A stretch of 64,000 nt of DNA, taken from contig NC_065537.1 of the NCBI RefSeq assembly GCF_932294415.1, positions 51,752,302 through 51,816,301 on the forward strand, given 5' to 3'. Below the pieces are notes generated by a model. The model searched no databases and was not told the DNA's origin. It saw nothing but the letters and a program-made list of their open reading frames with translations. Shown here one piece after another: positions 4,327 through 50,010 of the stretch. A program made the position numbers and the translations under genes. Within the stretch, counting starts at the first letter, position 1, and every line of letters starts with the position of its first letter. Source of the DNA: Quercus robur (lineage: Eukaryota; Streptophyta; Magnoliopsida; Fagales; Fagaceae).

Positions 4327-5295
4327 CCATTTCAAAATTTGTTTATTTTATAAGGAAAGTCAAACAAATACATGGTAAGTTGTAGTTGGTGAAACATAAC
4401 GTAAAACATAAAAAGTAGTACATATAATTTGTATCCAAAAAACCCCCGATTCTAGGCGTTATGACATCATTGATTAAGTAATTAACCACATTCATCAATT
4501 GCTCTATCATTCTTAGGTCGTAGTTCTCACAATTATGACGTCATTAATTGAGAGTTGAGGTAGGGTTTTCAACATGTGAAAATGATTAATTTTTCTATAA
4601 ATAGATAAGGTTATAAGGTAAGAATTAGAACAATAAAAAATAAATAAATAAATAAACTTGCATTTCTTGGACGCGGTTTTCAAAATGATAATCTCATTTC
4701 TTTGAACAAATCTCCTTATGTTGTAATATTAATATTTGTCGTAGATTTGCTCCACCAAGTATTTGTTGATGATTTGAGCAGTGATGAGGAATAGAAATAA
4801 AGGAATTTCTCAAAAAAAAAAAAAAAAGTATTTGTTGATGATTCAACACCCATTCATTTTGAGGTTGTCAATTATATCTCTATTCGATTCGTTGGTTTGA
4901 TCCTTCTTGGACTCTTTCTCTTGTTATGATTTAAATAGTGATATCTTTAATAGACAAGATTGAACCATAATTAATTTGTTGGAATCGTTTTCCTTCTTTC
5001 TCCTCTTCCCCAAAATGACATTTATGGAAAGTGTTGTTATCATGATTTCTTTACATGTATGTTTTAGGAATGTCAAAATATAGTTCTTAGACATTGACAT
5101 ATAATTATTAGGCGCCATGGGGTGTTAAGTTGCATTGATTTTACAATAGATTAACAATTCCCTTGGAAGATAGCTCTTAAAGCTTTGAAATTAATGATGC
5201 ATTTTCAATTTTTGGTTAATCTTTATCAAAATATGCGTGTGATTTTCTTGAAAAATTCAATTCATTCTTAACTCTTTTGATTAGGATATGTGTTT
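4327..5295. repeat. Dispersed repeat, copy 2 of 3
   Basis: Homologous to copies 1 and 3. It shares with copy 3 an upstream part (TTTGTTTATTTTATAAG and CAAACAAATACAT) that copy 1 lacks, so copies 2 and 3 are the closer pair and lie head-to-tail with only about 20 bp between them. Copy 2 lacks the internal 460 bp of copy 1. It carries a small poly(A) insertion at 4775-4827. Confidence 0.75.
4759..4843 (+). mobile_element. Very short poly(A)-tailed retro-insertion with 16-bp TSD
   Basis: The 16-bp sequence GTATTTGTTGATGATT occurs at 4759-4774 and again at 4828-4843. Between them is a 53-bp insert ending in TTTCTC followed by 16 A residues. Copies 1 and 3 of the host repeat have no insert here, so they show the empty site. 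This is the signature of LINE-machinery retroposition of a strongly 5'-truncated LINE or SINE 3' end. Confidence 0.8.
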
Positions 5296-6035: not shown

Positions 6036-6708
6036 TGATGTAGAACAGACAACACATGCCTTCCTGAAGTAGCAAGGGCGTAGGAAGTCATAACGCAATA
6101 TCAAATGGGGGTGCCAGTAGGGGCCATCGGGGTAACAGTGTCAGAATTGCATGAAATTTGGCAGGTTGAAGAGAAATGGCGTTCTGATCCAGATTCATGA
6201 CTGCCATAAACGTCGCCAAAATTTAGGCGAATTCCTTCATTAAGGCCCCGATAACAATGTTTTTGCTATTTATAGTAATATTTATTTTTCCTTAATAACT
6301 TTTAGTTTAAAAGTCAAAATAAGGTCCTGTCTATTTTGGGACGACCTTTAAAGTCAATAGTTTATGATTCTGCATTTAACTCAATTTTGTCATTTTTTGT
6401 AAATTTCAGTATTTTGTCACCTAATCGCGTAATTAGTGCGAATTAGGGTTTTTAGACGTTTATCTCAGTATTTATATGTTTTGTAGCCGTCAGAAAGCAA
6501 ATTAGACTATTATCAATAAACACAAACGTTTTGTCAAATTTTCTTCTGGTGGATTCCAGTTTTATCTCCTTGTAGATTCAAGAAAATCCCTCATGGATTC
6601 AGGGAAACCCCTCATGAATTCGAGATTTACTACCAAAAACTAACAGTTTAGTTTTTATTCCATCAAGAGAGTATCGTGTGTGCTTTTCTTCAGGCTCTCG
6701 CGACATCA
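6036..6708 (+). repeat. 5' LTR of the CRM-like element
   Basis: 673 bp, TGATGT to ACATCA. It aligns to 11168-11811 over its whole length with many transitions (roughly 90% identity by eye). It is 29 bp longer because CCCTCATGGATTC is followed by a near-repeat (CCCCTCATGAATTCGAG) that the 3' LTR lacks. Confidence 0.9.
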
Positions 6709-6710
6709 GT

Positions 6711-6723
6711 TGGTATCAGAGCC
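6711..6723 (+). other. Primer-binding site, initiator tRNA-Met
   Basis: TGGTATCAGAGCC starts two bases after the 5' LTR and is complementary to the 3' end of plant initiator tRNA-Met, the usual primer of plant Ty3/gypsy chromoviruses. Confidence 0.9.
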
Positions 6724-6741
6724 TTGACTTACCCTGGTCTG

Positions 6742-9700: not shown

Positions 9701-11327
9701 CAGATGGAGTTTGTATTATATACGGATCATCAGGCATTGAAGCACATCAACAGTCAAGTTAGCATTAACAGGATGCATGCTAGGTGGGTAGCTTATATAC
9801 AGTGCTTCCATTTCACATTGAAGCACAAGTTTGGTGTCACTAATAAGGTGGCTGACGCACTCAACAGGTGAGCATCTTTGTTAACCACCCTACGTACTGA
9901 AGTTGTCGAGTTTGATTGCCTCAAGGAGCTATACGAGAATGATGAGGATTTTGGTGATATTTGGGGTAAGTGTCAACAAACTCATACTGCTATCAATAGT
10001 ATGTACATCCAAGATAGTTTCCTCTTTCGGGGTAACCAATTATGCATCCCTAAAAGTTCATTGAGAGAGCAGATTAGGGAGTTGCATGATGAAGGTTTGG
10101 GTGGACATATAGGCAAAGATAAGACTATAGCACTGGTGGAAGAGAGGTATTATTGGCCACAACTCTAGAGGGATGTTGGCAATCATGTGAGGAAGTGTCC
10201 AATCTACCAAACTGCTAAGGGTTAATCTCATAATACTGGTTTATACATGCCTTTGTCAGTTCCACAAGCACCATGGAAGGATTTGTCTATGAACTTTATA
10301 TTGAGTCTTCCTCAAACCCAGCGAGGTATGGATTCTATTTTTGTTGTGGTTGACAGGTACTCGAAGATGTCTCATTTCATAGCATGCAAGAAGACTTCAG
10401 ATGCTACTCGAGTGGCCAATCTGTTCTTTAAAAAAGTTGTGCATTTGCATGGAGTGCCAAAATCCATCACCTCTGACTGGGATACCAAGTTTATTAGTCA
10501 CTTTTGGCGAACTTTGTGGAAACGTTTTAACACTTCCTTGAATTACAGCAGCACTAGTCATCCACAGACTGATGGCCAGACAAAAGTGGTTAATCGCAAT
10601 TTGGGGAATCTGATCCGATGTATCTTAGGCAAGAAGCCCAAGCGGTGGGATCTTGCATTGTCCCAAGCAGAGTTTGCATACAACAGCTCAGTCAATAGGC
10701 ACTGGTTAGTCTCCATTTGCCATCGTCTACTGTGTGCCCCCAAAACACTCTTTGGACTCGGTACCTTTACCTGAGCTTTCAGGAGTGAGTCAAGCAGCAA
10801 AGAATATGGCTAACCATATTCAGGCCATGCAAGAGGAGGTGAGGTAGAAACTTGAAACTACAAATGCCAAGTACAAGGAAGCTGCTAATAAGAAGAGACG
10901 TGAGAAGATCTTCAATGCTGGGGATTTAGTACTGGTCTATCTTAGAAAGGAGATATTTCCTGTTGGTACCTACAACAAATTGAAGGACAAGAAATATGGG
11001 TCATTTCAGATTACTAAGAAGATCAACAACAATGCTTATGTGGTTGCTCTTCCTCCAAACATGAGTATTTCTTCTACCTTCAATGTTGCTGACTTGTATA
11101 ATTATCATCCTCCTGATGAACCAGATAGTGGGAACTTGGGATCGAGTTCCTTTCAAGTGGGGGGGACTGATGTAGAACAAACATGCCTTCCTGGAGCAGC
11201 AGGGGCGCAGGAAGTCACAATGCAAGATCAAAAGAGGGTGCCAATAAGGGCCATCGGGATAACAATGTCGGAATTGCATGAAATTTGGCAAGTTGAAGGG
11301 AAACGACGTTCTAATCCAAATTCATAA
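6742..11327 (+). pseudogene. Broken gag-pol polyprotein of the CRM-like element
   Basis: The start is the ATG at 6742 (MANQRDSD), shortly after the primer site. Gag covers about 6742-7900 with a CCHC knuckle (CYRCGEPGHRSSTC) near 7830-7866. The protease active site (IIDSGS) is near 8125-8142. RT follows with [10 protein letters not shown] and YFDDIL (about 9097), then RNase H (about 9590-9870) and integrase (about 10080-10770). Breaks: stops at 7276, 8696, 8789, 8855, 9173, 9575, 9668, 9683, 9869, 10166 and 10223; an apparent internal deletion of roughly 100 bp at about 8226 that changes frame; a further frame change near 10697; and a stop near 10845. Two integrase catalytic positions are substituted (the first acidic residue reads N, the last reads K). 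The last segment (10980-11327) runs 160 bp into the 3' LTR before its stop. Nonfunctional. Confidence 0.88.
11156..11166 (+). other. Polypurine tract of the CRM-like element
   Basis: AGTGGGGGGGA lies immediately before the 3' LTR (then C, then TGATGT). It overlaps coding sequence, consistent with pol continuing into the LTR. Confidence 0.75.
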
Positions 11328-25099: not shown

Positions 25100-27509
25100 C
25101 TAAACTTGTTGGTTCTTTCCCTTATTGAGCTTCACACCATATTTCTCCCACAATTTCTCCTCTTCATTTTGAAAGCAGCTACGGTGGACCTCATTAGTGC
25201 CTACATTGGAACTTGAAGGTGGAAGGCCCTCATCCATTAGCTGAAGTCCCATGCTCTCAGGCCTATGTTTGGGAATTTCCTGACCTTGATAGGAATTAAG
25301 TAGCTGAAAATAACTACTGCTTGTTGTCAAATCCAAATCCTCTTTGCTCTTCTTGTTACACTCCATTGTCTTGTTATAATAGATGCTGATACTTTCCCAT
25401 TTTTCTTTACAAGCAACCATACTTCTATCATACCCCAAAGACCCCATTTTTGCAGCTATCTCCTCCCAAAGACCTTCCTCCAAATACCCACTTTCTTGGA
25501 ATCGAAGTTCCAAGCTAGTTCTTAGTTGTATTAAACTTGAAACCTCCATTTCAGTCCACCTGTTATTGTTAATAGTTTCAACCTGGTTTTCTTCATGGCT
25601 TTGTGTTTCTACAGCCATTGGTGATACAGCTAATCCTTTCCCTATGAATTTCTTTAAAGCCTCCATTAATGCTGCATCTCTAGCTTCAACCCATGCTCTC
25701 TCTTTAGCCCAAAGTTCATGTACTTCTTGATCAAACCGAGCTGCCTCTTGTTTCCTCCACTGTTCCTCTTTAGACACCCTCTCTTCCTCTCTATTTTCAA
25801 TAGTCTTCAACATCCTATCCATCCAAGCCTCTTGTGTGTCCATTATCTTTCTCATTTGTGAGTCCACAAACTCCTCAACCTTTGCTTTCCAGCTCTTCTT
25901 AGCCCTTTGGTAACTTTGTCTCTCATTCATCACTTTCTGCTTCTCCATTGATTGATTCATCATGAATGCAATGGCGGAAAGATCATCATCATTATTGTTT
26001 TCCGAGGAGGAAGTCTCAAATTCAGATGAGTTAGAGAAAGTACTAAGGCTCTCAGTACATAGCCTTTGGTTCTGAACAACTTCTTGATTTTCTTGTTGAA
26101 TTACATTGTTTCGAGTGCTCTGATGATAAGGAAGGCTGCTTGAAACTGAGGCATGATTATTGCTTGCTTCTCCATAGATTGCTTCCAGCTGCCGAAAGAA
26201 CCTATAGTGCTTCCCATCTTGTCTTCCAGCTTTACCTTCTTTAGTTTTCTTGTAGTACTTGTACAAGTTCTCAAATTTCTCTTTACATTTCTTCCCACTC
26301 CTCTGGTATCCATGTTCCTCAGCCATTATCCTGAATCAAACTAATTTAGATCAAAACAAATAGGGGGTAATTTTCAACATATGATGGTGTACGTAATATA
26401 TTAAATAAATAATAATTTAACCTAGTACTAGTTATTTCCTAGAGATTTCTAACAATAAGGCCATGTAATATTTATTAAAGAAGATTCCAAGTAATATTTC
26501 TTGGTTGAGCATTTTTTATTAATATTTGAGTTGTATAAAATAATAAGAACATTCCTCCTAATTAAAAATCTGTATAATAAATACTTTTATTCGATATTAA
26601 CTAGATTCGATTGCCCTAATTGAGCAAGGAGAGGTTACTGAACTATAATACAAAGATTGGGTTTCGGAGAGAGAGATTCTTGGACTGGTCACATGTACAC
26701 TATCACACAAAACCAGTATATGGGTACTTAAACATCAAGGAGTCAGGCCAAATTTCTTAGACATAACCAGAAAAAAATCAGGGGGAAAAAAGAAACAACC
26801 TGGGTCTCTCAGTTAACTTCAATGGCTTGTCATTCTCAAGCACTAAACTCAAGCAAAAACACATAATTTTTTCTTTAAAGCTTGTCACTTTTTTTACAAA
26901 AATAGCAGAAGAACAGAAAGATATCAAGAAAACGCTATAGGGTTTCTTAATCAAGCATCACCCAGTTTGAAAAAAGAAAAACAAAATACTGAAAAGAAAA
27001 ACAAAACCGAAAAAAAAAAAGGAAAGAAAAGAATGGTGCAGTTAGTACTTAGTAGAGAGATGGATATACCTAGAGACTTCATCCCACAAAGGTCCTTTCT
27101 GATTAGTCTCTTTGAACTTGGAATCAAGACGAGATCTGATCTCAAGAAGAGTAAGAGTTTCTTGCCTTGGCCATCTAGTATTTCCAATAGCATCATATCC
27201 CATCCATCCACTCTCTATTTGCGAACCACAAAGTGTAGTAGTAGCAGCTGAACTTGTTGTAGTAGTAATAGTGGCTGTGTTGTTGGGAGTGGCAGCACCA
27301 GTAGTACTTGAATCATGACCAAACCCAACTTGAAGTCCACGAGGCAAAACCTCATGACCAACCATTATAGGCTCGTAGTGAAGCTGAGGAGGTGCTGCCA
27401 CTATATTCCTTTGCAGAAAGAAAGGCTCAGTGGATTGTGTCATGCCCGGGAAATGAGTTCTTCCGGCCATGAATTGCCGGAGATCAGGCAGTCCGTACTG
27501 GTCTCCCAT
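25100..27509 (-). CDS. PTL: PETAL LOSS-like trihelix (GT-2 type) transcription factor
   Basis: Exon 1 is 27070-27509 and exon 2 is 25100-26330, giving 556 residues. The intron (739 bp) has the donor TCTAG-GTATAT and acceptor GATTCAG, and interrupts the first DNA-binding domain between SR and IM. The start is MGDQYGLPDLRQFM, a PTL-type N-terminus. Residues 60-110 are S/T-rich. The N-terminal trihelix is about 112-200 (RWPRQETLTLLEIRSRLD to RFFRQLEAIYGE). An acidic linker follows, then a long charged coiled coil with many W residues (about 290-378) and the C-terminal trihelix (about 403-490, NRWTEMEVSSLI to WESISIYYNK). Family members are nuclear GT-element binders; Arabidopsis PTL limits growth between sepals and shapes petals. 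Ortholog status is inferred from the N-terminus and domain identity; a close GT-2-like paralog is the alternative. Confidence 0.92.
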
Positions 27510-35700: not shown

Positions 35701-36018
35701 TCTGAGAAAATAAACAGTAAATTGAAACATGTGATGACACATTTTCATATTTAGTGATGCTCATGTGATGACACATGATCAACTCATTGTTTATTTTCAT
35801 ATATGTTTAACAATTTACACATTAAACAATATCACATACTTTAAATGTTACATGCAAAACCTCAAATGGGTTCTGTGTTTTATGGGAAACCACACGAGGT
35901 TTTTAGTTTTTTAATTTAATTTAATTTTTATCCATTTCTACCTCAAGTAGAAAAAATGTTTGGTTAGAATTTATATAACATCAATTGTGAGTTTATTATT
36001 AGTAATTTTTTCCCCTTA
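32774..36018. other. AT-rich intergenic stretch
   Basis: Contains a (TTTGCC)n hexamer tract at about 33033-33064 followed by (TTAGCC)3, a (TA)n tract at 35563-35584, a CT run at 34912-34930 and poly(A) at 34021-34043. An open frame of 90 codons at 33568-33840 starts with ATG but resembles no family I know. No other gene recognised. Confidence 0.4.
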
Positions 36019-36023
36019 ACTTT

Positions 36024-37248
36024 TGTTGAGGTCTAAAAAATCACAGTAAAATAAGCCCAAGAAAGAATAAGCTAAGCCCAAGAAAGAGTGAGTTAAGCCC
36101 AGAAGAAAAAAAAAAAGACCAAGTCCAAAGGGATTATACAAAAGGCCCTGAGGATCCCGAAGCCCAGAAAAGGAAAAGCAACCAAAGAAGAAAAAGAAAG
36201 AACATCATAGCAAAGTATAGGACGCAAGGATCCTCGGGCACCATCAATGAGCGCGAAGAAAAAAGAAGACCAGGACAGATCGATAGAAAGAAAAACAAGA
36301 AAAAAACAAAAGGACGCAAGCAACCCTTCATGGCACAGACAGAAAAAGGCGTCGGGGAACCAAAACAAGGAAAAAGAATGTTAACAAAATGATTTCAAAA
36401 GAGCAGAACAGGATTCCGCCCAAATAGGAAAGAAACGGAGAAGTAAAAGACACCAGAAGTGAGGATGCCGAGAAGGGCATACCTCAGCACGTCCCAAAGA
36501 GGATGGCCAACCAGAAGCTTTCGAAGGAATCAGAACCAAGAGAAGGAAAGAATGAGAGAAAACGGAAAAGGGGACTTACCGAGATGATGAGGACAGAACA
36601 TACTCTGTTTGCAAAAGACCCAAACAGGGGAACCAACGGTTCCCCAAGACACCCAGAAAACTCCACTATAAAAGGAGAGGATGGGTTGTGAAGAAAGGCA
36701 GCGAGAAAAAGGGAAAAGAAACACAATAGAAAGAAGAGATTCTCTAGAAAATTATCAGAAAGTTTAGGCAGAAATAAAATATCAGGGGAAAACAAATACT
36801 GCTTCTCGATATCCTGTAAAAGCAACTATGGCACATACTCGGATCCAACGAGAATCAAACTTCGCAAGTTTTGAAGGCTGAAATAGCCATTCAAGGCTGC
36901 AATTTTTGAGCTTGATTGGACCTTGTATCACGTCCTAGTAAGCTTGTTGTGATCGAATAGATAATGCTTTAATTAAATATTGTTCCCGGGATCCCCACAA
37001 TACTTCTCTTTTATTGTCTTGCTAATCCTGCTTTTTCTTTTTTTTGAGCTTACGTTGTTAATTTCTGGCACTCCTCGATATCCCTGTTTGTCATCTTTTT
37101 TGTCAGGAGCATTTCTCTGTATTCACTTGATTCTTAAACAGCCATTTAGCTGCGGTGAGTCAAGGCCCAGTCCACCAAATCCCCTCTTTCTTTTTCATTC
37201 AGGCTCGGGATCCTTGGGCCTGAGTATCCCGAAAAAGACACTCTCACA
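36024..37248 (+). repeat. 5' LTR of the Tat-group element
   Basis: 1,225 bp starting TGTTGAGGTC and ending CTCTCACA. U3 is purine-rich. A TATA box sits at 36667-36674. It is nearly identical to 48476-49699. Confidence 0.95.
36667..36674 (+). promoter_or_regulatory. TATA box of the 5' LTR
   Basis: TATAAAAG, in a CCAC-TATAAAAGGAG context, about 640 bp into the LTR. The genomic RNA would start near 36697-36705. The same box is at 49118-49125 in the 3' LTR. Confidence 0.65.
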
Positions 37249-37251
37249 TTT

Positions 37252-37270
37252 TGGCGACTCCGCTGGGGAC
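37252..37270 (+). other. Primer-binding site, tRNA-Arg type
   Basis: TGGCGACTCCGCTGGGGAC begins three bases after the LTR. It is complementary, with about one mismatch from memory, to the 3' end of a plant tRNA-Arg, a primer reported for Tat/Ogre elements. Confidence 0.7.
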
Positions 37271-37309
37271 TGGGCAAAGAAGAAGGAAGAAACAATCCCT
37301 TCACAGAGA

Positions 37310-39535
37310 ATGCCTCCAAGACAAAGAAACAGCAAAGGAACCAATGTGCCACCTACGGCCTCTGAGCCTGTAGGAGAAAACGAGGAAGTCTCCAGGCAAG
37401 GAGGTGGGATACCCTTGGTGGAACAGGAGGTTGTGTCGGAACAAAGACACGCAAGACAAGAACCAAACCTAATGGCCAGGATGACAGCAATGCTAAAGGA
37501 TTTGGAGCAAGAAGTTCGTCTTCTCAAAGAAGGCAGGACACAGGAAGTCAGAGACAACATTCCCCCTACTGGCCACCAAGATGGGACCCAGCCAGAAGGA
37601 GGGTCAGCAGTAGGAGGAAGAGCCAACCCTCAGTATTTGACACTGGCAGACGTCAATGCCCTCTTGGAGCAAGAAAGGGAAAAACTCTCAGGGATCCCCA
37701 AGCAATTCTCTCGGGATCCCCCGTTCCCTCCAGAACTCCTTGGCAAACCATATCCTAAGGGATACGAACCCCCAAAGTTCCATCCTTTCGATGGGAGGAA
37801 TGGAAGTGCCGTGGAACATGTGAGCAGGTTTGTCCACACTATGGGCCCCTATGCAGGAGACAAAGAATTATGTCTAAGGGAATTTGCCAAATCTTTGGTA
37901 GATAGGGCATACACCTGGTACACCACGCTGAGACCCGGGTCCATCAAGACCTGGGATGAGATGATGGAAAAATTCTGCGCCAAATATTACCCTGGTGAAG
38001 ACAAAATCACTTTCCAGAACCTGCAGATGGTGAGGCAGAGACCTGGAGAAGATCCTGTTCAGTTTATTAAAAGATTTGAAGATGTGTCTCTAGACTGCTA
38101 TGGAGACCATGAAGAAAAGGAGCTCGTGGAAACCTGTATAGCCAACATGCTTTTTGATTACAGGCTCAACCTTGAAAATTTATGTATCACACAGTTTGCT
38201 GACCTGCTACAGAGAACCAGAAGGACAGCGCAAACTATGAGAACAAAAAGGCTGCCCGCATCCCAAGCTATGACAGCATCAACAGGAGAAAAAAGGAAAA
38301 GACCAGACGGAAAGGTGTTTGAAGAACCACCAGTGATCCCATGCACAGCTGAGGAGTTAAGCCATGTCCTAGACAAATGGATTGGAGATGGGGTTGTTAG
38401 GCCATTCACTGTGTCCAGGCCGCCAACCGAAGAAGAAAGGAAGAATCCTTTATTTTGCAGAATCCATAACTATGTGAAGCACTCCACTAAGGACTGCTGG
38501 ACCCTTCGCAGATTATTCCACAAAAAGTTGAGAGAAGGAACCCTGGAACTCACCCAGAAGGAATCGGAAGTGCAGAGGAACCCCTTACCTAACCACAAAG
38601 GAAAAGGGGTGGTAGCAGTAGTAATACATGGGAACCCAGCAGAGGCAGGAGAATCTGAAGGATCCTTCCACCCGAGTACAGTCAAGACCCTCCAAAAGAA
38701 TCCTAAGTTCAGGTCACTATTCAATCAATTAGGATTCGGACCAGAAGCAAGAAGAGTGGCCACAGAGTCTCTCATGAGTATAGCAGCAGATTCAGGGATG
38801 GAATGTTTTACAGCTGAGTCACATGCTAGTCGAGCTTTCCTGGAGACAACCAATGCAATAACTTTCACTGATGAGGACATGGAGATTGAGCACCCAGACC
38901 ACCGTAGACCCCTTTATTTAATGGCCACCATAAACGGCGTTCAAGTCAGGAGAGCACTGGTGGATACAGGGGCATCACTCAACCTCATAGCCTTCAGTAC
39001 CTTGGAAGCTGTTGGCTTAGCTGACAGAAGGATCCTGGGGACCCCCATGGAGATAACAGGATTTGGAGGATCGGTGGAAGCAACAGAAGGATACGTACAG
39101 CTAGCCTTAAGGGTAGGGCCAATAGTAGCTTTGACAAGGTTTCATGTGATTAATGCAGAAGTTTCTTATCACGTGCTGCTGGGACGCCCGTGGCTTCACA
39201 AACATCGCCTTATTCCATCCACGTTCCATCAATGCATTAAAGGGAGACTGAATAGGAGGCCCATAAGGATCCCTGCCAATCATAATCCTTTCAGCCAGGG
39301 AGAAGTAAACTTTGCAGAAACGATGTTTTATGATGAGTTGGAGCCAGATGATGAGAACCCCACCCCAGGGACCCCGGGGGCACCTATCCTAGAAGAAGAA
39401 GAAGGAGGAAGGGGCACCCGTGACCTGAGAAACCTTTTAGAAAGAAAAAGACAAAAGAGGGAGCCCAGCTCTTCAGGATCCCGAGAATGTGTGGTGGTGC
39501 GGGAACCTGGGGGAAGGCTAATTTATCGTTTGTGA
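37310..39535 (+). CDS. gag-pro: Gag-protease polyprotein of the Tat-group element
   Basis: 741 residues from ATG 37310 (MPPRQRNS), the first in-frame ATG after the primer site; the frame is also open into the LTR but without ATG there. The N-terminal 100 residues are charged with a short coiled-coil-like stretch (AMLKDLEQEVRLLKEG). The retrotransposon gag domain lies at about 170-320 (YTWYTTLRPGSIKTWDEM, MVRQRPGEDPVQFIKRFED). A C-x2-H-x4-H-x4-C metal-binding-like motif begins at Cys383. The aspartic protease has LVDTGAS with Asp552 and a downstream LLGRPWLH. It forms the particle core and processes the polyprotein. The ORF ends in TGA (39533-39535), with pol following in the same reading frame. 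Confidence 0.93.
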   Translation: MPPRQRNSKGTNVPPTASEPVGENEEVSRQGGGIPLVEQEVVSEQRHARQEPNLMARMTAMLKDLEQEVRLLKEGRTQEVRDNIPPTGHQDGTQPEGGSAVGGRANPQYLTLADVNALLEQEREKLSGIPKQFSRDPPFPPELLGKPYPKGYEPPKFHPFDGRNGSAVEHVSRFVHTMGPYAGDKELCLREFAKSLVDRAYTWYTTLRPGSIKTWDEMMEKFCAKYYPGEDKITFQNLQMVRQRPGEDPVQFIKRFEDVSLDCYGDHEEKELVETCIANMLFDYRLNLENLCITQFADLLQRTRRTAQTMRTKRLPASQAMTASTGEKRKRPDGKVFEEPPVIPCTAEELSHVLDKWIGDGVVRPFTVSRPPTEEERKNPLFCRIHNYVKHSTKDCWTLRRLFHKKLREGTLELTQKESEVQRNPLPNHKGKGVVAVVIHGNPAEAGESEGSFHPSTVKTLQKNPKFRSLFNQLGFGPEARRVATESLMSIAADSGMECFTAESHASRAFLETTNAITFTDEDMEIEHPDHRRPLYLMATINGVQVRRALVDTGASLNLIAFSTLEAVGLADRRILGTPMEITGFGGSVEATEGYVQLALRVGPIVALTRFHVINAEVSYHVLLGRPWLHKHRLIPSTFHQCIKGRLNRRPIRIPANHNPFSQGEVNFAETMFYDELEPDDENPTPGTPGAPILEEEEGGRGTRDLRNLLERKRQKREPSSSGSRECVVVREPGGRLIYRL

Positions 39536-39589
39536 AGGTGCGCGGGACCCGAATGCATTGTGCAGGAAGGTCCCGGACCACCAAGCTGC

Positions 39590-42500
39590 ATGATGGCCCA
39601 AGAAGAAATCCCAGAAGAACCAGTTAAGGAGGCCCAGATTCAGCCCGAGGAAGAACTGAAGGAAGTAGACCTGGGAACAGAACCAGGATCCCGGAAACCT
39701 GTTTTCATTAGCAGTCAATTGGTGGCTCAAGAAAGAGAACAATTGGTAGCCTTACTTCAAAAATACAGAGATGTGTTTGCATGGACTTATGATGAGATGC
39801 CTAGTCTAGACCCGGAGTTAGTGGTCCATTCTCTTAATGTGGAACCAGGGGTGAGGCCAGTAGTCCAACCAGCCAGGGTCTTCCACACTGAGGTAGAAGC
39901 TCAAATAGTCCAAGAAGTCAAGAAATTACTAACAGCTGGTTTTATCAAACTCATCCAACACCCAAAATGGCTGTCCAACATTGTACCTGTGAAGAAGAAG
40001 AATGGTCAAATCCGCTGCTGTGTAGACTTTCGCAACTTGAACAAGGCATGTCCTAAAGATGAGTTCCCCTTGCCCAATATCGATCTCCTTGTAGATTCAG
40101 CTGCTGGAAACTCAATGTTCTCGTTTATGGATGGGTACAGTGGGTACAATCAAATTCGCATGGCAGCCAAAGATGCAGAAAAGACGGCATTCAGAACTCC
40201 GATTGGGAACTTTTACTACACTGTAATGCCCTTTGGCCTCAAGAATGCGGGGGCTACGTATCAACGAACCATGACAGCCATTTTCCATGACATGATGCAT
40301 GAGGAGATGGAGGATTATGTAGATGATATTGTGGTCAAGTCAAAAACCAGAACAGGACATTTCCAAGTACTTGAGCAAGTCTTTGAAAGATGCAGGAAAT
40401 ACAAGTTACGTATGAACCCCATGAAGTGCGCCTTTGGAGTGTCTGCTGGAAAGTTCCTTGGGTTCCTGGTACATCACAAAGGCATAAGCGTGGATCCAGC
40501 CAAGGCCACAGCTATTGCCACGATGAGAAGACCAACTACTATTAGAGAACTCAAAAGCTTCCTGGGAAGGGTCTCCTATATCAGGAGGTTTGTGCCTGGT
40601 TTAGCCTCAGCTACGGCAGGCTTGTCAAAATTACTGAAAAAGGGAAATGAATTCACCTGGGGAACAGAGCAGCAGGAAGCTTTTCAAAGAATTCAGAGCA
40701 TTATGAACCATCTGCCCACCCTCCAGGCACCAGTACGTGGGCGACCTCTGTTACTATACTTAGCATCGAACTCTCAGGCAATAGGAGCCTTGCTGGCACA
40801 AGAAGATGACCAAGGAAATGAGCAGCCCATATACTATGTAAGCAGAACACTCAAGGATACTGAAACCAGGTACCCCAGAATAGAGAAAGTCTGCCTAGTA
40901 ATCGTTTATGCATCCCAAAGATTGAAGAGGTACTTCTCAGCTCACCAAATCCTCTTGGTAACCAAGTCACACCCCATAAAAGCACTACTGCACCAGCCCC
41001 TCCTCACGGGAAGGATGGCACAATGGCTAGTATTGCTCTCACAATATGATATAGGCACAAGAACTCCCAAGGCTGTAAAGAGCCAGGCCATAGCAGATTT
41101 GCTAGCTCAATTCCCAGGGAAGGAAGAAGGCCCACTGAGCGAAGAAATCCCTGGTGAGGTAGCAGTGATGGAGATCCCAGGAAAGAAATGGACCATGAGG
41201 TTCGACGGATCGGCTACAGCAACTTCAAATGGGGTAGGAATTGTGCTAAGCTGTGAAAATGGGGATGTCATGCCCCTGTCTTTTAAGCTTGGTTTCTCGT
41301 GTTCTAATAATGCAGCTGAGTATGAGGCATACTTGACTGGGTTGGCTATAGCACTCAGCATAGGAGTAAAACACATGAGAGTGCTGGGGGATTCTAATCT
41401 TGTAGTCTCCCAAGTGAAAGGTGACTTTGCATTACGGGAACAAAACTTAGCAGCCTACAGAACTTGGGCACAAAGACTGGAAATGGAGTTTCAAACCTTC
41501 AGCATAGAATACACTCAAAGCAGCGAAAACAAGTTCGCAGATGCTCTCGCCACCCTGGGATCCCAAATACCATTTGATGGGAGAGATACACTGATAAAAA
41601 TAGGAAGGCAGGAACATTCTATTGTGAGGATCCTCCAAGGAATGTACCCAGGGGAATCCAAACAGTGGGACTGGAGGGACGAAGTCAAAGAAAGGATGAA
41701 AGAAGTAAATCCTAGAGGGAACATCAAAGAGCTAATGGATTACACTCAGATAGAAGGAGAATTGTACAGAAGACTGCCAAGAGGAATACTGTCCAGATGT
41801 ATCACCGAGAAGGAAGGAAAGTTGAAATTAGAAGAATTACACGCCCAAACATGTGGAGTTGCAGAAAAAATCAGCCTATACAGGAGGATGCAACGCATGG
41901 GGTACTACTGGCCAGACATGGACAAGGAAGCAGCAGTCATACAGGGGAAATGTAAAGAATGTCGCTTGGCAATCGATAAAGAAGAAAGCTACGCTGTGTT
42001 TGTTATAGAAGATTGGCGGGTTCCTTTCATAGGATACCTAGCTCAAGGTATCCTGCCAACCGACAAGGAGCTGGCTCATAAGCTCAAGAAACTGGCGTGC
42101 AGGTATTTCTTGCAGAATGATATTTTGTTCAAAAAAGGATACCACGGGGATCCCCTCAGGTGCCTGGGACCAAAGGAAGCCAGAGAAGTGGTCAGAGAAG
42201 TGCACTCTGGAGATTGCGGAAGTCACCCAGGAAAGAGAAGGCTGCACAAGCAGTTACTGTTGTTGGGGTATTACTGGCCAACGATGAAAAGAGACTCTGA
42301 GGAGCTGGTCAGAACATGTCATGCTTGCCAAGTCCTAGGAGATGCGATTCACACTCACCCAAATGTCCTACAGGATATGACAACACCATGGCCTTTCCAT
42401 ACTTGGGGGCTCGATCTCATAGGGCCCATAAATCCTCCATCCAATGGTTATATATGGATCCTGGCAGCCACGGAGTACTTTACAAAATGGGTAGAGGCCA

Positions 42501-43267
42501 TCCCTTTGAAAAAAGCTACTGGAGCAACTGTAGCAAATTTCATTCGAGACCACATCATCACAAGGTTCGGGATCCCCAGAAGACTTATCAGCGACAATGG
42601 AACCCCATTCATAAACAAAGATGTGAAGGGATTAGCTGAAGCATACCACATCAAGCATAGAAGATCTACCCCATACTACCCACAAGGAAACGGCCAAGCT
42701 GAAGCTACTAACAGGGTAATATTAAAAATCCTTAAGAAAATGAAGCATGAGTATGGAGGAAAATGGAGTGACCATCTGGCAGATGTGCTTTGGGCATGTA
42801 GGAGTTCTGTAAAGACAGCCACAGGATTTTCCCCATTCTCCCTGGTTTATGGAACAGAAGCCATCAGCCCTGTGGAGTTAATCATTCCTACACCAAGGGT
42901 AGTTCTTGAGGAAAATCAGGGAGAAAGTGAAGATGCAAGCAACAAAAAGAGATTAGTAGATCTGGAAGGAGTAGAAGAAGAAAGAGAACTGGCCAAGAAA
43001 AGGAGTCAAAGATACCAGCAAAGAATGACCAGAGCATATGCACAAGCAGTACGCCCAAGAGTGTTCACCAAAGGGCAACTAGTGCTAAGGATGGCGGAGC
43101 ACGTAAGGAGGAACCTGCCAGGACCTTCCAAGTTCACCCCAAAATGGGAAGGACCCTACATCATCAATACAGCTCATGAAAGTGGATATTATTACCTTGC
43201 CAAAGAAGATGGGACAGTCCTGACAGAACCCATAAACGGGAAATGGCTGAAGCAATATTATGCATGA
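39590..43267 (+). CDS. pol: Pol polyprotein (RT, RNase H, aRNase H, integrase)
   Basis: 1,225 residues from ATG 39590; the frame is open from 39536, directly after the gag-pro TGA. RT is about 110-290 with YVDD at 243-246. The RNase H associated with RT is about 380-490. A second, archaeal-type RNase H (RVT_3) begins at MRFDGS with Asp539 and has NNAAEYEA and LGDSNLVVSQV. Two zinc-finger-like modules follow: a degenerate one (LHAQTCG to CKECR) and a regular HHCC (His872; CHACQ). The integrase core has Asp942, Asp1002 and Glu1038, keeping the D-D-35-E spacing. All catalytic residues I can check are present. It copies the element RNA into DNA and inserts it. Translation must involve read-through or re-initiation past the TGA, or RNA processing. 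Confidence 0.94.
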   Translation: MMAQEEIPEEPVKEAQIQPEEELKEVDLGTEPGSRKPVFISSQLVAQEREQLVALLQKYRDVFAWTYDEMPSLDPELVVHSLNVEPGVRPVVQPARVFHTEVEAQIVQEVKKLLTAGFIKLIQHPKWLSNIVPVKKKNGQIRCCVDFRNLNKACPKDEFPLPNIDLLVDSAAGNSMFSFMDGYSGYNQIRMAAKDAEKTAFRTPIGNFYYTVMPFGLKNAGATYQRTMTAIFHDMMHEEMEDYVDDIVVKSKTRTGHFQVLEQVFERCRKYKLRMNPMKCAFGVSAGKFLGFLVHHKGISVDPAKATAIATMRRPTTIRELKSFLGRVSYIRRFVPGLASATAGLSKLLKKGNEFTWGTEQQEAFQRIQSIMNHLPTLQAPVRGRPLLLYLASNSQAIGALLAQEDDQGNEQPIYYVSRTLKDTETRYPRIEKVCLVIVYASQRLKRYFSAHQILLVTKSHPIKALLHQPLLTGRMAQWLVLLSQYDIGTRTPKAVKSQAIADLLAQFPGKEEGPLSEEIPGEVAVMEIPGKKWTMRFDGSATATSNGVGIVLSCENGDVMPLSFKLGFSCSNNAAEYEAYLTGLAIALSIGVKHMRVLGDSNLVVSQVKGDFALREQNLAAYRTWAQRLEMEFQTFSIEYTQSSENKFADALATLGSQIPFDGRDTLIKIGRQEHSIVRILQGMYPGESKQWDWRDEVKERMKEVNPRGNIKELMDYTQIEGELYRRLPRGILSRCITEKEGKLKLEELHAQTCGVAEKISLYRRMQRMGYYWPDMDKEAAVIQGKCKECRLAIDKEESYAVFVIEDWRVPFIGYLAQGILPTDKELAHKLKKLACRYFLQNDILFKKGYHGDPLRCLGPKEAREVVREVHSGDCGSHPGKRRLHKQLLLLGYYWPTMKRDSEELVRTCHACQVLGDAIHTHPNVLQDMTTPWPFHTWGLDLIGPINPPSNGYIWILAATEYFTKWVEAIPLKKATGATVANFIRDHIITRFGIPRRLISDNGTPFINKDVKGLAEAYHIKHRRSTPYYPQGNGQAEATNRVILKILKKMKHEYGGKWSDHLADVLWACRSSVKTATGFSPFSLVYGTEAISPVELIIPTPRVVLEENQGESEDASNKKRLVDLEGVEEERELAKKRSQRYQQRMTRAYAQAVRPRVFTKGQLVLRMAEHVRRNLPGPSKFTPKWEGPYIINTAHESGYYYLAKEDGTVLTEPINGKWLKQYYA

Positions 43268-44074
43268 GGACAAGGGGATCCCCAGTACCTCGGAGTCCTT
43301 TCACCAACTTCACTATCTGCTAAGTTCCTTTTTATTTTGTCTTTTATTTTTCAGCTTTTATCAAGAATTCTGGCCTAAGATAATTTTGTTCAGGAACATG
43401 TGATAGATTGACACTTTGTGGTCAATGCTGCACCAAAAGACTTTTTGCTTTGTTCCAAAAAAAAAAGATGATTATGTTTTAACGAAATTCCTGTTTCTTC
43501 AAAGTTTAAGTTTTTCTTATTGCAAAGACCAAATGTGGAAAAATTTAAGGGAGGATACCTGAGTAAAAAAAAAAAAAAAGAGAATATGTAATACCCCTTT
43601 TACATATGGCCCAGGATCCACCTCACCAATAATTTCAGATATCCCGCAAACAGTTCCAAGTGCATAGGTTTAGGATCACAGAATAAAAAAAAAAAATATC
43701 TAGGATACCTAGCCTAGCACTTGGCAAAAAGGGGAACCTGTCAAAAGTTCATGAACTGGGACCGTATCTCAAAAAAAAATAAATAATGCATAGAGAAGGA
43801 TACTAGTGTACCCAGTTCAGTACTTGCACAATAAATCACCAGGTACCTGGACCAGAACTTACAGTGAAGCCTGTGGGAACCATGGTCCAGGACTCAGGAA
43901 AGAAAAGAATCACAAGAAAGTAAAGACAATATATATACATCCAAGGAAAAAGGCAGATTCACATACCAAGAAATAAGAAGCAGTTTTGAAGCACAAAAAG
44001 AAAGAGCAGAGCAATGTTTAAAAAAAAAAATTATACAACCCCAAATTGTTCATATGAATAAAAAAAAAAAAAAG
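43268..44074. other. Spacer between pol and the antisense gene
   Basis: Non-coding, with repeated GGATAC/GGTACC motifs and poly(A) runs. On the minus strand it holds AATAAA-like signals near 43332-43350, which could end the antisense transcript close to the pol stop. Confidence 0.5.
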
Positions 44075-47000
44075 CTAAGGAATGAGGCCGGCCAGCAGAG
44101 AAGCATCTGGAGAAATAGCAGGAACAGCCAAAGAAGAAAGGATCCTCTGCCGCTTGACTTTCAAATCTTGTAGAACTTTATGAGCATGAGCCAAAGCTTC
44201 CTCAGCAACAGCTATCTCAGTGTCTATGCTCTTGAATGATTGCCTTTGAAACAGCATATGAGCCAGCAGACGCAAGTGATCCAGCAGGAAAGACAAATTA
44301 AACTTGGCCTCTAGAAGGTCCTGCACCACACCTCTCCATTCCAGAAGCTTTTCTTCAGACAACGAATCAACAGAGGAATTCTTTAGAGAAATCAACACAG
44401 CACACAACAACTCCATCAGAATATTGCCTAGAAAAATGCCTCCCCTAAAGCCACCGGTAAAATCCCCGTGACTCTTGAGCAGGCTCTCTAGCAGCGGCAA
44501 GCCCTCCACAGGAACAGAGAAGCGCAGGAAGCTGCCATAAGAAGACCCAAAGACATGAAAGTGGCTGGCAGGAAGACTGTTGAATTCCAAAAGATCGAAG
44601 CGAGCCAGGAAAGAGGAAAGCCTTGAATCAAGATCTGAGGCAGCCACCTTCGAGACATCCCCCATCACCGCGTCACCACTTGCAGAAACCTGAGGACTTG
44701 CAGCCTTTTGTTCTGGATGAGGGTCAGCAACTTCAACAGGTCTCACAATTCCTTCAGGGATAACAGGCTCAGAACCTGCAAAGCCTGCATCAATATTCAA
44801 AAAAAAAACAGAAGAAGAAAAAAAAAAAGGAAGAACAAATTTAGAAGAAGCAAACCGGTTCCAGTTTCTTGAGGCAGAACCTCTTCTTCCTGATCTCCTG
44901 ACATCCCCGAAGATTCTGGGAAAGAACATAAGGCAAGTTGAAGAAAGGGTGAAGGACCGATGGCAAATTGGCTAAAGGAAGGGATAGATGCAGGGGGTTT
45001 CGCCATATAAAAAAAAAAAAGAAAAGGGGGAAAGAAAAAGGAAAACACAATGGAACAGCTTGCACTCACCTTCTGAGCTCTCTGATTCTAAAGAAGAGGC
45101 AACACTGGGAGCGGGTTTCTCACTGGTTTGACCTAAAAGGAAAAGAAGGAACTCAAGAGAAACTGGGAAAGAGAGTGAAACATAACGTTATTTCAAAAGA
45201 AACAAGGTTTACCTGTTTGTTTGGATAAAGGAGTGTCTCCCAAAGCACCTTTATCTGACAAGGACTGAGGAAACACAGTCTTGATAGGACTGGGAGTGCG
45301 TTCGAGATGGGGACTTTGAGATGATGGGATCCTAGAAGCTTTGGGATCCTGAGAGTCCTGGGAACCTTGCATCGGCTGCCCAATTTCCTCAGCAGGGTCA
45401 TCAGTAGGGAGCTCCTCCCCCATAACAGGAAAAACGACAGAAAGAGCTGTGATAGTTTCCTCCCCCAAAACCTTGCCAGTCACAGGAGGGGATACCTCCA
45501 CCTAAAGAAAGGAGAAGCAGAGAAGACAATACTAAAAAAAAAAAGAAAGGAAAACGGCAAGAATACTAGCAACACAGAAAGAACAGAAGAAGGGGGAACA
45601 CACGTACCACGTCGTCTCCAGAAGATTGACTTTTACCCTTCTTATAATCAGACTTGCGCTTAGACTGCAAAGAAAATCACCACTCGTCAGCAAAGATAGA
45701 AAAATGAATGCAACAAAAAAAAAAAAAGAGAGAAGAAGGAAAGAAGTCTTGCCCTTCTCTCTCTCTCTACAGATTCTCTGGAAGTCTTTTGCTTACTACG
45801 AGTACGCCCAGAGGGTCCTAAAGGAGGCTGGGATACCAAACCAGAGGATCCTAAAGAACCATGGACTGAAGCAGTCACAAGAACCTGGGGAAAAGAAGAC
45901 TCTACCTTGGTCTTCTTCCGGGTCCTTGAAACTAAAGGTTCCTTGACATCCTTGCCTTCGTGAGATGCCAAGTGTGCTTGAGATTTCCCCGTTTTCCTTC
46001 TTTTTGCTTCAGAGCCTATCTCCACACCCCCTGCACTTTCGCCAACATCAGCAGCTTTCATTTTCTTCAACTTAACATCCTTACCTTTAGCAGTAGCAGC
46101 ACTAATTGTCTCTGTTGCACCCTTTTTGATGGGTACCCCAGAGGAGGTACCAATGATAAGACTATCACCCAGCCAGGCCTCAGGAAGATCCTGTCCATAA
46201 GTCACCCAACCTCCCCTGGAGGAATGCCACTCTGCGAACCCAGTCTTGCTGCTTGCAGCAGCAGAAACAATCCCAGCAGTAGGAAGGGATAAACGTCTAT
46301 TAGCTGTCGGAGCAGAAACAATGCTAGAGTTCGGGACTTCCCGAATTGTACCGGTGCCAACATAGTCAACAAAAGATTTCTGTACTCTTCTCCAATAACC
46401 GGTATAGCCACTGGAAGCAAAGACTCCTCTCTGGGAGTTAGGCACCACGAACTGGGGGCTCCTCCGAAACCAATAAGAAAAGGCCTGCAGCCTCAAGAAA
46501 GGATCCAAGGAAGGAAGAGATGGCACCACATCCTTGAAAACTGGCGGGATATCTTGATCAAAACCAAACTGTCGAAGCACCCGGTGTGCTGAATAATGAG
46601 TGTACTTTGGGCCACTTGAAGAAGGCACGGGAAGCCAGGAAGGGCTAATGCAGGCAAGATAAGCCAGACTGCCCTCATCACCACGGCGCAAGTCGAAGGT
46701 ATTACCTGTTGAAGATAAAAAAGAAGACAACACAGAATCACACGCGAAGCCAGGACCAAACTCACGAGGGGATCTCCAACACAAGCTCCCTGCTTCGTCA
46801 AACAACTCCACAAGGTTGAGGCCACCACCTTTTAAGCTAATCCAACGGAAAATAATGGGAAAGGCATCAGTAGAATTGCCACAAAGACCCTTCACTATGT
46901 CGGGGGATCCTTGGAACTTGTCCTTCACAAACTTCAAATTTCTACACTTAGCCAAGGTAGCTGCAAAACGATCCCACATGAAAATCTGAAGAATGGCACA

Positions 47001-47963
47001 GTGAAGGGATGAAGTAATCACATAGCAAGAGTCACCCTCAGCCTCATCTCCGTGAAGCTGGTCCAGTTGAGAATAAACGTGACCCAAAAACAGAGGGGCC
47101 AAAGGATATTGGGTACCTCGAGCCAATTTGATTGCCAACGGAAAAAGTGAAGACTTGACTCCGTACCCAGGGAACTCACTAAACAAAAATTTACTAAGCC
47201 AGAAGGCTAGGAAACCGGCCCACCTCACTTCTTTATCCTTTTCACGAGAAAGGGTCATCACCCATCTCCCCATCCTAGCCGGCTTACCACCAGGAGAGGC
47301 GGAGCGACCACCAAAATGACCAAATAATTTCTCTTCTACCACAAGATCCTCACTAGAAAGATCAATATCAAAGGGATTCTCTTCACCAAACACCGGGAGG
47401 AGGAAGTTATTAACCACGTCCTCCAAGGTGATTGTCAATTCACCAGTAGAAAAGAAAAAAGTATGAAGGGAAGGACACCAACGACGTACCAGATGCCTGA
47501 GCCCTTTGGCGTCTCTGAAACCCTCAAGGTTTCTGGAAATAGCCACTGCCTTTAGGATGCCGGCGCGCTCCAAACGACCCACAAACTCAGCATCAGACAG
47601 TTCCTTGTCTACCCATATGGGCCAACCCTGAATCTTCCCCGCCACAAAATCAAAGAAAATAGGAACCGCCTCTCGGATTCCTTGTCTGATCTGGAGATCG
47701 AAAACCTCTCTAGGGTCAGGAACCTGGGCGGAACCAGCGAAACCCGCTTGGCCAGAAAATAGCCAAACGTGAGGGGATGGAGGAGCCTCACCATGAGAAA
47801 TATGAGGAAAAAATAAACTGGGAGAGTACCAAGGATCCCGTAGAGGGAAGGCTGGACGCTCAACAACCTCATGAGAATCGCTCGGAGCAGAACCAGAAGA
47901 ACCTTCACCCTCAGAAGGACCAGGAGTATGCTCTCTCCTCTTTCGAGAAGAAGAAGAAGCCAT
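44075..47963 (-). CDS. Six-exon antisense gene with plant mobile domain, inside the retrotransposon
   Basis: Inferred exons: 45771-47963, 45608-45664, 45213-45501, 45070-45132, 44856-44915, 44075-44784, about 1,123 residues. Acceptors are pyrimidine-rich ending CAG or TAG; donors include GTACGTG, GTAAACC, GTGAGTG and GTTTGC. The first donor is uncertain (GTAGAG, or a GC donor 18 bp on), and both keep frame. All joins stay in frame. The start is MASSSSRKRREH; an upstream in-frame ATG (48164) exists but gives an unlikely hydrophobic leader. The plant mobile domain spans roughly residues 100-460 with RRWCPSLHTFFFSTGE and TITLEDVVNNFLLPVFG. Basic NLS-like clusters (EAKRRKTGK, RTRKKTK) follow. The last exon is helical with a probable coiled coil. 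PMD proteins such as MAIN/MAIL1 are nuclear silencing factors, and related domains occur in plant transposons. Its role in this element is unknown. Confidence 0.78.
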
Positions 47964-48475
47964 GGAAACACACACTATGAAGAAGAAAAGAGATTGAAGG
48001 TGCGCAAAAGGAAGACCAGAGTAACGGAGAAGAAGAGGAAAAGAAAGAGAAACACAGAGAGCGAAATAACCCAGAGAAGCAAAGTGATAAGATGAAACGG
48101 CTACAATAAAGGCGCAAATAGCAGTTGGGGAAAACAGTTTATGAAAAGACGCGCCAGTTGCCAAAGAATTTAATTTGAAGTAGGAGTTACAGCAGTTATT
48201 AATGAGAAATAACGGGAAACGAGGAAAGTGGGTAGAGGAGTTTCACCTCAAATATCCAACTGCCACGTCCTGTATAAAGAGGAAGCTGCGAAAGAATAAG
48301 GGAATACAACACGCAAAAAAGAGGTGACTAGAAGCAGCAGAAAAAGAGCCGGGATCCCAAGTAAATAGGAAGGGAACCCAGTAAAAGTTGAAAAAGGGGG
48401 ATACCACAAAAACCTAAGGAAACCTAAATCACTCACGCGTGGGCTTCAGGCAACCCACGAGCTCGGGGGGCTAAA
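47964..48475. other. Putative promoter/leader of the antisense gene
   Basis: 512 bp between the antisense ATG and the 3' LTR. No convincing minus-strand TATA box; a plus-strand TATAAAG lies at about 48277. It ends in GAGCTCGGGGGGCTAAA, whose G run (48465-48470) is the likely polypurine tract. Confidence 0.45.
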
Positions 48476-49699
48476 TGTTGAGGTCTAAAAAATCACAGTA
48501 AAATAAGCCCAAGAAAGAATAAGCTAAGCCCAAGAAAGAGTGAGTTAAGCCCAGAAGAAAAAAAAAAGACCAAGTCCAAAGGGATTATACAAAAGGCCCT
48601 GAGGATCCCAAAGCCCAGAAAAGGAAAAGCAACCAAAGAAGAAAAAGAAAGAACATCATAGCAAAGTATAGGACGCAAGGATCCTCGGGCACCATCAATG
48701 AGCGCGAAGAAAAAAGAAGACCAGGACAGATCGATAGAAAGAAAAACAAGAAAAAAACAAAAGGACGCAAGCGACCCTTCATGGCACAGACAGAAAAAGG
48801 CGTCGGGGAACCAAAACAAGGAAAAAGAATGTTAACAAAACGATTTCAAAAGAGCAGAACAGGATTCCGCCCAAATAGGAAAGAAACGGAGAAGTAAAAG
48901 ACACCAGAAGTGAGGATGCCGAGAAGGGCATACCTCAGCACGTCCCAAAGAGGATGGCCAACCAGAAGCTTTCGAAGGAATCAGAACCAAGAGAAGGAAA
49001 GAATGAGAGAAAACGGAAAAGGGGACTTACCGAGATGATGAGGACAGAACATACTCTGTTTGCAAAAGACCCAAACAGGGGAACCAACGGTTCCCCAAGA
49101 AACCCAGAAAACTCCACTATAAAAGGAGAGGATGGGTTGTGAAGAAAGGCAGCGAGAAAAAGGGAAAAAAAACACAATAGAAAGAAGAGATTCTTTAGAA
49201 AATTATCAGAAAGTTTAGGCAGAAATAAAATATCAGGGGAAAACAAATACTGCTTCCCGATATCCTGTAAAAGCAACTATGGCACATACTCGGATCCAAC
49301 GAGAATCAAACTTCGCAAGTTTTGAAGGCTGAAATAGCCATTCAAGGCTGCAATTTTTGAGCTTGATTGGACCTTGTATCACGTTCTAGTAAGCTTGTTG
49401 TGATCGAATAGATAATGCTTTAATTAAATATTGTTCCCGGGATCCCCACAGTACTTCTCTTTTATTGTCTTGCTAATCCTGCTTTTTTTTTTTTTTTAGC
49501 TTACGTTGTTAATTTCTGGCACTCCTCGATATCCCTGTTTGTCATCTTTTTTGTCAGGAGCATTTCTCTGTATTCACTTGATTCTTAAACAGCCATTTAG
49601 CTGCGGTGAGTCAAGGCCCAGTCCACCAAATCCCCTCTTTCTTTTTCATTCAGGCTCGGGATCCTTGGGCCTGAGTATCCCGAAAAAGACACTCTCACA
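48476..49699 (+). repeat. 3' LTR of the Tat-group element
   Basis: 1,224 bp, TGTTGAGG to CTCTCACA, followed by the TSD ACTTT. Differences from the 5' LTR include single-base changes such as CCCGAAG to CCCAAAG and AAGACACCC to AAGAAACCC. Confidence 0.95.
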
Positions 49700-49720
49700 A
49701 CTTTCTTCTTATTAAAAGAA

Positions 49721-49961
49721 GGGTTTTATTAATGGGTGCCTTAGGCGTGCATTGCATTAAGGATGCTTTAAAGGATTGCCACTTAAGAGCATTCGCATTC
49801 AGATTTCTAAAAAATTTCTCATTTTACATTCTAAAAAGCTACCTTATCTATTTTAACATACAATTTTACAACTCATCCAATAACTCATTTCTTATTTATC
49901 ACAAATAGCCAAATACTATTCATTATTTTATAATTTTTATTCATAAAAAAAAATAAAAAAA

Positions 49962-50010
<49 letters not shown>

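Follow-up and report, generated by a model that had tools for sequence, protein, structure and literature searches.

A six-exon antisense gene for a plant mobile domain protein under purifying selection in a Tat-type LTR retrotransposon of Quercus robur

Can a retrotransposon keep a spliced gene of its own, and what would such a gene do for it? The question is raised by a 64,000-nt stretch of the Quercus robur genome (NC_065537.1, positions 51,752,302–51,816,301 of the forward strand; hereafter the window), in which a long terminal repeat (LTR) retrotransposon carries, between pol and its 3′ LTR, a multi-exon gene on the strand opposite gag-pol. We establish here the structure of this gene, its homology to the plant mobile domain (PMD), purifying selection on the PMD and on a helical C-terminal tail, and the persistence of the introns. 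Our reading, which we consider reasonably likely, is that this is a selected antisense PMD gene with its own promoter, the transcript of which would be spliced five times and yield a nuclear protein, perhaps acting on the host PMD pathway.

Using GT-AG borders and reading-frame bookkeeping, we modelled the gene as six exons spanning 47963–44075 on the minus strand, separated by five GT-AG introns of 71–154 nt (phases 0, 0, 1, 1 and 1; T content 45–63%). The joined exons come to 3,372 nt, that is 1,123 codons and a stop, in agreement with an earlier note on this DNA that had proposed six antisense exons joining in frame across five introns into about 1,123 residues. The elements of the model, all on the minus strand, are as follows.

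48262–48279, minus strand: candidate antisense promoter, with TATA-like CTTTATAC (48279–48272) and ACGTGGC (48268–48262)
45771–47963, minus strand: exon 1, with the ATG, the PMD (about 46533–47558) and a basic stretch resembling a nuclear localization signal (NLS)
45665–45770, minus strand: intron 1, with an alternative in-frame donor at 45905
45608–45664, minus strand: exon 2, basic (SKRKSDYKKGK, by eye)
45502–45607, minus strand: intron 2
45213–45501, minus strand: exon 3, linker
45133–45212, minus strand: intron 3
45070–45132, minus strand: exon 4
44916–45069, minus strand: intron 4
44856–44915, minus strand: exon 5
44785–44855, minus strand: intron 5
44075–44784, minus strand: exon 6, with a TAG stop; its C-terminal half is helical in the model and conserved

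The longest antisense stop-free run in the region between pol and the 3′ LTR (43268–48475), in the frame of exon 1, is 851 codons, compared with a mean of 130 and a maximum of 249 in 500 dinucleotide shuffles. Both the PMD and the basic region lie inside a single open frame (45687–48242) that can be read without splicing. The dependence on splicing that had been suggested for the gene is therefore limited to the C-terminal exons, and does not extend to the PMD and basic region.

The PMD predicted for exon 1 was recovered by a profile search (PF10536; 118.4 bits against a cut-off of 34.9, E = 5.3e-34, profile positions 2–296 of 347), and no other domain exceeded its cut-off in the antisense frames scanned against Pfam. 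Sequence searches of the PDB returned no match for the PMD frame and four for exon 6, none of them significant; the best of these (44078–44782, minus strand), to serine/threonine phosphatase 5 at E = 0.24, is curious in that a PPP phosphatase is a partner of host PMD proteins, but is most likely due to chance. The NCBIfam search gave no match (best E = 0.11), and the search of viral_contigs returned two pattern stretches and no relative. An AlphaFold single-sequence model of exon 6 has a mean predicted local distance difference test (pLDDT) score of 49.8 and contains two long helices, 143–179 and 183–217, at a pLDDT of about 70. We read the predicted protein as beginning with a constrained PMD, continuing through a basic stretch and a loose linker, and ending in a constrained, probably helical tail.

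Other copies were sought in the window's own assembly (785.7 Mb) with a 1.7-kb probe over exons 2–6, which gave 40 scored places at 94–100% identity. From these, 30 copies (L009–L038, L009 being the window copy itself) were extracted; genome searches other than pattern searches score the best candidates only, and copy counts are thus lower bounds. Since the alignment continues into the end of pol in all 30, the antisense arrangement is common to the copies. Exclusion of L010, which is diverged on the exon 1 side, and of L037 left 28 copies, and further exclusion of L024 left 27; L037 was first set aside on account of a partial best BLAST piece, though it is not diverged and is a near-identical twin of L035. 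Unless stated otherwise, a shared variant is one present in at least three copies, and omega, which compares nonsynonymous (N) with synonymous (S) changes, was corrected by the mutation spectrum of the introns and 3′ flank.

Among the 28 copies, shared variable sites in the compared portion of exon 1 (47260–45771) numbered 3, 5 and 52 at codon positions 1, 2 and 3, with 8N:52S and an omega of 0.07 (p = 4e-19). The PMD portion (47260–46501) was still more constrained, at 2N:38S and an omega of 0.024 (p = 2e-17). The other two antisense frames gave omega values of 2.9 and 3.5, and noncoding stretches 0.45–2.35. Shared variants were 0N:4S in exon 2, while the C-terminal half of exon 6 had 2N:9S (omega 0.11) among variants present in at least two copies. 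Nine additional copies covering the 5′ part gave a concordant picture, with sites variable in at least two copies numbering 4, 1 and 11 at the three codon positions. For the end of pol the shared counts were 8N:23S (omega 0.14, 27 copies); the antisense PMD is at least as constrained as this end (Fisher p = 0.017), which covers just the final 0.66 kb of the gene and is perhaps less conserved than the pol core.

The 353-residue PMD stretch is free of stops in 94 of the 115 scored copies and exon 6 in 139 of 150. With frameshifts, stops and lost splice sites counted as lesions (and both GT and GC accepted as donors), the compared part of the gene is intact in 17 of the 27 copies; by type of lesion, 26 copies are free of frameshifts, 18 are free of stops and 25 retain all splice sites. 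Such lesions, of which at least one is present in the compared part of the other 10, and the youth of the listed copies, 94–100% identical to the probe, might suggest a decaying relic whose open frame is unneeded and was carried along by recent amplification. We give this the least credence of all the explanations considered, because shared variants, which mark the older branches, are far more constrained in the PMD than singletons (omega 0.024 versus 0.45–0.48). Such a difference is what one would expect if selection acts on the gene during the replication of lineages and is relaxed once a copy has inserted. Constraint on shared variants also means that replicating lineages carried a working gene, and the antisense product therefore probably benefits the copy that encodes it.

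Selection at least as strict as that on the end of pol would fit an accessory factor needed by the encoding copy in the element's own cycle: a nuclear regulator of transcription, RNA export, import of the pre-integration complex or target choice. The basic stretches, one closing exon 1 and the other within exon 2, are compatible with this, such roles have been suggested for antisense additional open reading frames (aORFs) in general, and the antisense protein of Grande is reported to be nuclear and its gene to have its own promoter (PMC7264820). However, no domain beyond the PMD exceeded its cut-off, and the PMD is tied, in the available portions of PMC5418596 and PMC7156037, to silencing and transcription rather than to integration; we regard a role of this kind as possible but on the unlikely side.

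The splice sites are also preserved. Relative to the window copy, changes at the 20 splice nucleotides occupy 3 of 540 cells, compared with 631 of 10,860 (5.8%) in intron interiors. Indel runs number 2 in 2,669 nt of exon and 1 in 668 nt of the pol end, as against 362 in 807 nt of 3′ flank and 196 in 517 nt of intron, the last figure being inflated by slippage-prone T runs in the bins richest in indels. With its GT-AG sites and phase conserved, the gene has, at the level of sequence, the marks of a spliced gene, and the expectation that frame and exon borders would be kept in other copies of the family was borne out.

The unspliced border between exon 3 and intron 3 matched the genome 239 times (118 + 121) at up to three mismatches, whereas the spliced junctions between exons 3 and 4 and between exons 4 and 5 had no match in the whole genome at the same tolerance. 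The introns thus persist, and at these two junctions there is no sign of antisense mRNA re-entering the genome. The counts, though not proof of splicing, fit the prediction that introns survive through the antisense position of the gene: they would be retained if packaging and reverse transcription involve the sense RNA only.

Given the position of the gene opposite the genomic RNA, the antisense RNA itself could be the product, pairing with the sense RNA and either feeding small-RNA silencing or letting the element limit itself; antisense transcripts and double-stranded RNA have been proposed as regulators (PMC7264820). The third-position pattern, the omega of 0.02–0.07 in exon 1 and the conserved splice sites would be unexpected for mere antisense RNA, however, and make this explanation very improbable.

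The least certain border is the intron 1 donor, as an in-frame GTAGAG at 45905 would yield a product of 1,078 codons. Between this site and the donor at 45770 lie 135 nt, the length of which stays in frame in all 27 copies and which contain a stop in two. Upstream of the start codon, which is kept in the window and in all nine additional copies covering that end of the gene, both CTTTATAC and ACGTGGC are unchanged in the window and 9/9 other copies, and 48299–48050, between the ATG and the 3′ LTR, has zero indels in nine copies. This conservation suggests, though it does not show, that the gene has its own antisense promoter, as reported for Grande (PMC7264820).

Several observations weigh against our reading of a selected, spliced gene with a silencing-related product, including the limits given above on the pol comparison and on the intron indel figure. 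The middle of the protein shows little constraint: exons 3–5 have 20N:14S shared variants (p = 0.19, neutrality not rejected), exon 5 by itself has 5N:0S in 28 copies or 3N:0S in 27, and the N-terminal half of exon 6 looks neutral at 13N:6S. The 135 nt between the intron 1 donors have few shared variants (1N:2S) and 14N:7S singletons, and exon 1 is interrupted by a stop in 8 of the 27 copies. For the PMD, AlphaFold gave an unusable single-sequence model (mean pLDDT 36.5); the gene model and its putative splicing are predicted from genomic sequence, and the silencing role is proposed purely by analogy. Finally, one sense-strand frame shares its third positions with the gene and returns the identical 8N:52S. 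Over 45771–47260, each of the three sense frames contains 14–26 stops and the antisense frame none, which together with the PMD match assigns coding to the antisense strand; an artefact of sense-strand coding was rejected on these stop counts.

The element that carries the gene is whole, and its features are as follows.

36024–49699, plus strand: whole LTR retrotransposon, with gag-pol on the plus strand and the target-site duplication ACTTT at 36019–36023 and 49700–49704
36024–37248, plus strand: 5′ LTR, 1,225 bp
36977–39535, plus strand: gag and aspartic protease, a stop-to-stop open frame, the initial portion of which falls within the LTR; its start codon is unassigned
39533–39535, plus strand: in-frame TGA at the gag-pro/pol boundary, in 17/17 copies
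39536–43267, plus strand: pol, with reverse transcriptase (RT), RNase H, a second RNase H-like domain (RVT_3) and integrase; open frame and Pfam matches
48476–49699, plus strand: 3′ LTR, 1,224 bp

Its termini are TG...CA and the target duplication is 5 bp. As the earlier note had described, it is a young element with pol intact: the LTRs are 99.0% identical (11 mismatches and one gap over 1,225 columns), and the gag-protease and pol frames are both open in the window copy. At plant substitution rates of 1.3e-8 to 2e-9 per site per year, the LTR divergence corresponds to an age of roughly 0.35–2.3 million years. Two pairs of copies lie in the same orientation about 12.47 kb apart, in a tandem-like arrangement: L024 and L023 (C35:15181999/15194478), identical at 4,697/4,697 positions, and L037 and L035 (C4:28997753/29010227), identical at 4,687/4,689. 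The spacing equals one LTR plus the internal region, and the paired copies are probably tandem elements sharing an LTR. The sense strand is A-rich across 36001–50000 (AT skew 0.195–0.288 per 2-kb bin), in gag-pol and the antisense gene alike. Elsewhere in the window, 6652–10771 (plus strand) holds fragments of another gypsy-type element, including a gag with a zinc knuckle and a sub-threshold integrase match, and 25103–26335 (minus strand) holds a 411-codon open frame with a Myb/SANT-like domain (PF13837), presumably a trihelix-type host gene.

The element shows two features of the Tat group. Within the pol open reading frame (ORF), RT_RNaseH (403–504) and RVT_3 (556–673) precede the integrase core at 953, and a 5.2-kb region with an extra ORF (43268–48475) separates pol from the 3′ LTR; dual RNase H is reported across Tat (PMC9289625). 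The intron that separates gag-pro from RT-RNase H-integrase in Ogre was not found, and an intron here was rejected: in all 17 copies the boundary consists of one TGA with the same frame on either side, variable sites at codon positions 1, 2 and 3 number 5, 1 and 9 before it and 8, 2 and 23 after it, and gap cells in this comparison total 18. Among 149 scored copies, 40 have a pol frame of 1,243 codons and none has a longer one. The in-frame TGA fits stop-codon read-through rather than the intron of Ogre. Directly after the 5′ LTR the sequence begins with TTTTGGCGACTCCGCTGGGGAC, which would match the primer-binding site complementary to tRNA-Arg that is expected of Ogre. Membership of Retand was rejected, as Transposase_28 (PF04195), which Retand antisense ORFs are described as carrying in place of a PMD, was not among the Pfam matches of the antisense frames scanned.

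The earlier note had also raised the possibility that the gene is a recently captured host gene. PMD genes do exist outside the element family, the exon-intron form is host-like, and exon 6 has a sub-threshold match to PEARLI-4 (24.8 bits versus 29.9), which is perhaps only a coiled-coil resemblance. However, these PMD genes are distant relatives. In phmmer comparisons of exon 1 with a set of 27 ORFs, the C37/C5 genes (L001–L008) gave E = 1.8e-18 to 1.3e-26 at best and a second, repeated PMD class (L039–L042) 8.8e-6 to 5.2e-8; among the 27, no match was found to exon 6 or to the tail of exon 1. PMDs of gypsy elements moreover form clades of their own across angiosperms (PMC5418596). Recent capture was rejected on these grounds and seems to us improbable; no close non-element copy was seen, in searches that score top candidates only and could miss a moderately diverged host copy. 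The context in an LTR element, the sole criterion compared, agrees with assignment to the gypsy-borne PMD-A. Of the other PMD genes, those clustered at about 13.17–13.42 Mb of C37 (L001–L005 and L007), several of which match the full profile within a single open frame at up to 396 bits, are perhaps tandem host genes. L039–L042 have other exons, a proline-rich tail and many similar places in the genome; by eye, no recognisable RT or transposase was seen among ORFs of at least 150 codons in 6.5–7.5 kb.

PMD-encoding extra ORFs of Ogre/Tat Ty3/gypsy elements were reportedly described by Steinbauerova et al. in 2011. The present gene resembles them in having PF10536 in the extra ORF of a Tat-type element, but differs in its six exons with conserved splice sites and in the division of gag-pro from pol by a TGA without a spacer. 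HBZ of human T-cell leukaemia virus type 1 is spliced. It is likewise an antisense protein gene of an LTR-bearing element (PMC11963269), but of a retrovirus, without a PMD and with its antisense promoter in the 3′ LTR (PMC7264820). The PMD is reported in 57% of Ogre elements (PMC6317226) and as the commonest non-canonical domain of gypsy elements (PMC9289625). Antisense aORFs share with the present gene their position, orientation, possible own promoter and presumed nuclear role (PMC7264820, PMC11963269), but the available portions of these two sources describe no multi-exon antisense genes, and the first, a review from 2020, urges a search for antisense and spliced transcripts. Plant LTR elements are said to be generally without introns, Ogre and EVADE excepted (PMC12786077). 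In the open PMC literature accessible to us we found no spliced, multi-exon antisense PMD gene with measured selection, which is not proof of absence. The PMD in Ogre/Tat, antisense extra ORFs and the idea that PMDs of transposable elements (TEs) counter silencing (PMC8616336) are thus known; the multi-exon form with selection on splice sites and codons appears to be new.

How might the selected antisense PMD gene work? Transcription would run against gag-pol from the gene's own promoter just upstream (TATA-like box at 48279–48272), and the transcript would be spliced five times. The product would be a nuclear protein that starts with a PMD, continues through an NLS-like basic linker and then a second, loosely constrained one (exons 3–5 plus the N-terminal half of exon 6), and ends in a helical hairpin that may bind itself or a partner. 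The host PMD proteins MAIN and MAIL1 (PMD-C) share the domain but are host genes needed for TE silencing, whereas the present gene is borne by an element and has a helical C-terminal exon (PMC5418596, PMC7156037). By analogy, the protein would intervene in the host PMD pathway (MAIN/MAIL1/PP7L type) inside the nucleus, serving as a decoy or replacing a partner, and the element would escape or tune silencing; this is the likeliest job for it that we can name, though we put it at somewhat less than an even chance. More doubtful is the suggestion that the intron-rich antisense gene is an anti-silencing gene whose multidomain product mimics the silencing complex formed by host PMD proteins, with host splicing available for regulation. 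As the frame is open to 45687, unspliced RNA could still yield the PMD part, and splicing may therefore switch the helical tail: we speculate that unspliced RNA would give a PMD-only product and spliced RNA a PMD joined to a helical, partner-binding tail.

PMD genes of retrotransposons have been reported for years, and their function is called unknown in the literature accessible to us. Here, a family with about 240 marked copies in one genome gives a strong signal of selection on the PMD together with preserved splice sites, and makes the question of whether element-encoded PMD proteins counter host PMD silencing directly testable. It also suggests that multi-exon genes can be maintained by an LTR element, provided that they are antisense to the packaged RNA. 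Selection on the antisense PMD gene suggests that the element needs the protein, perhaps to cope with the silencing machinery of the plant.

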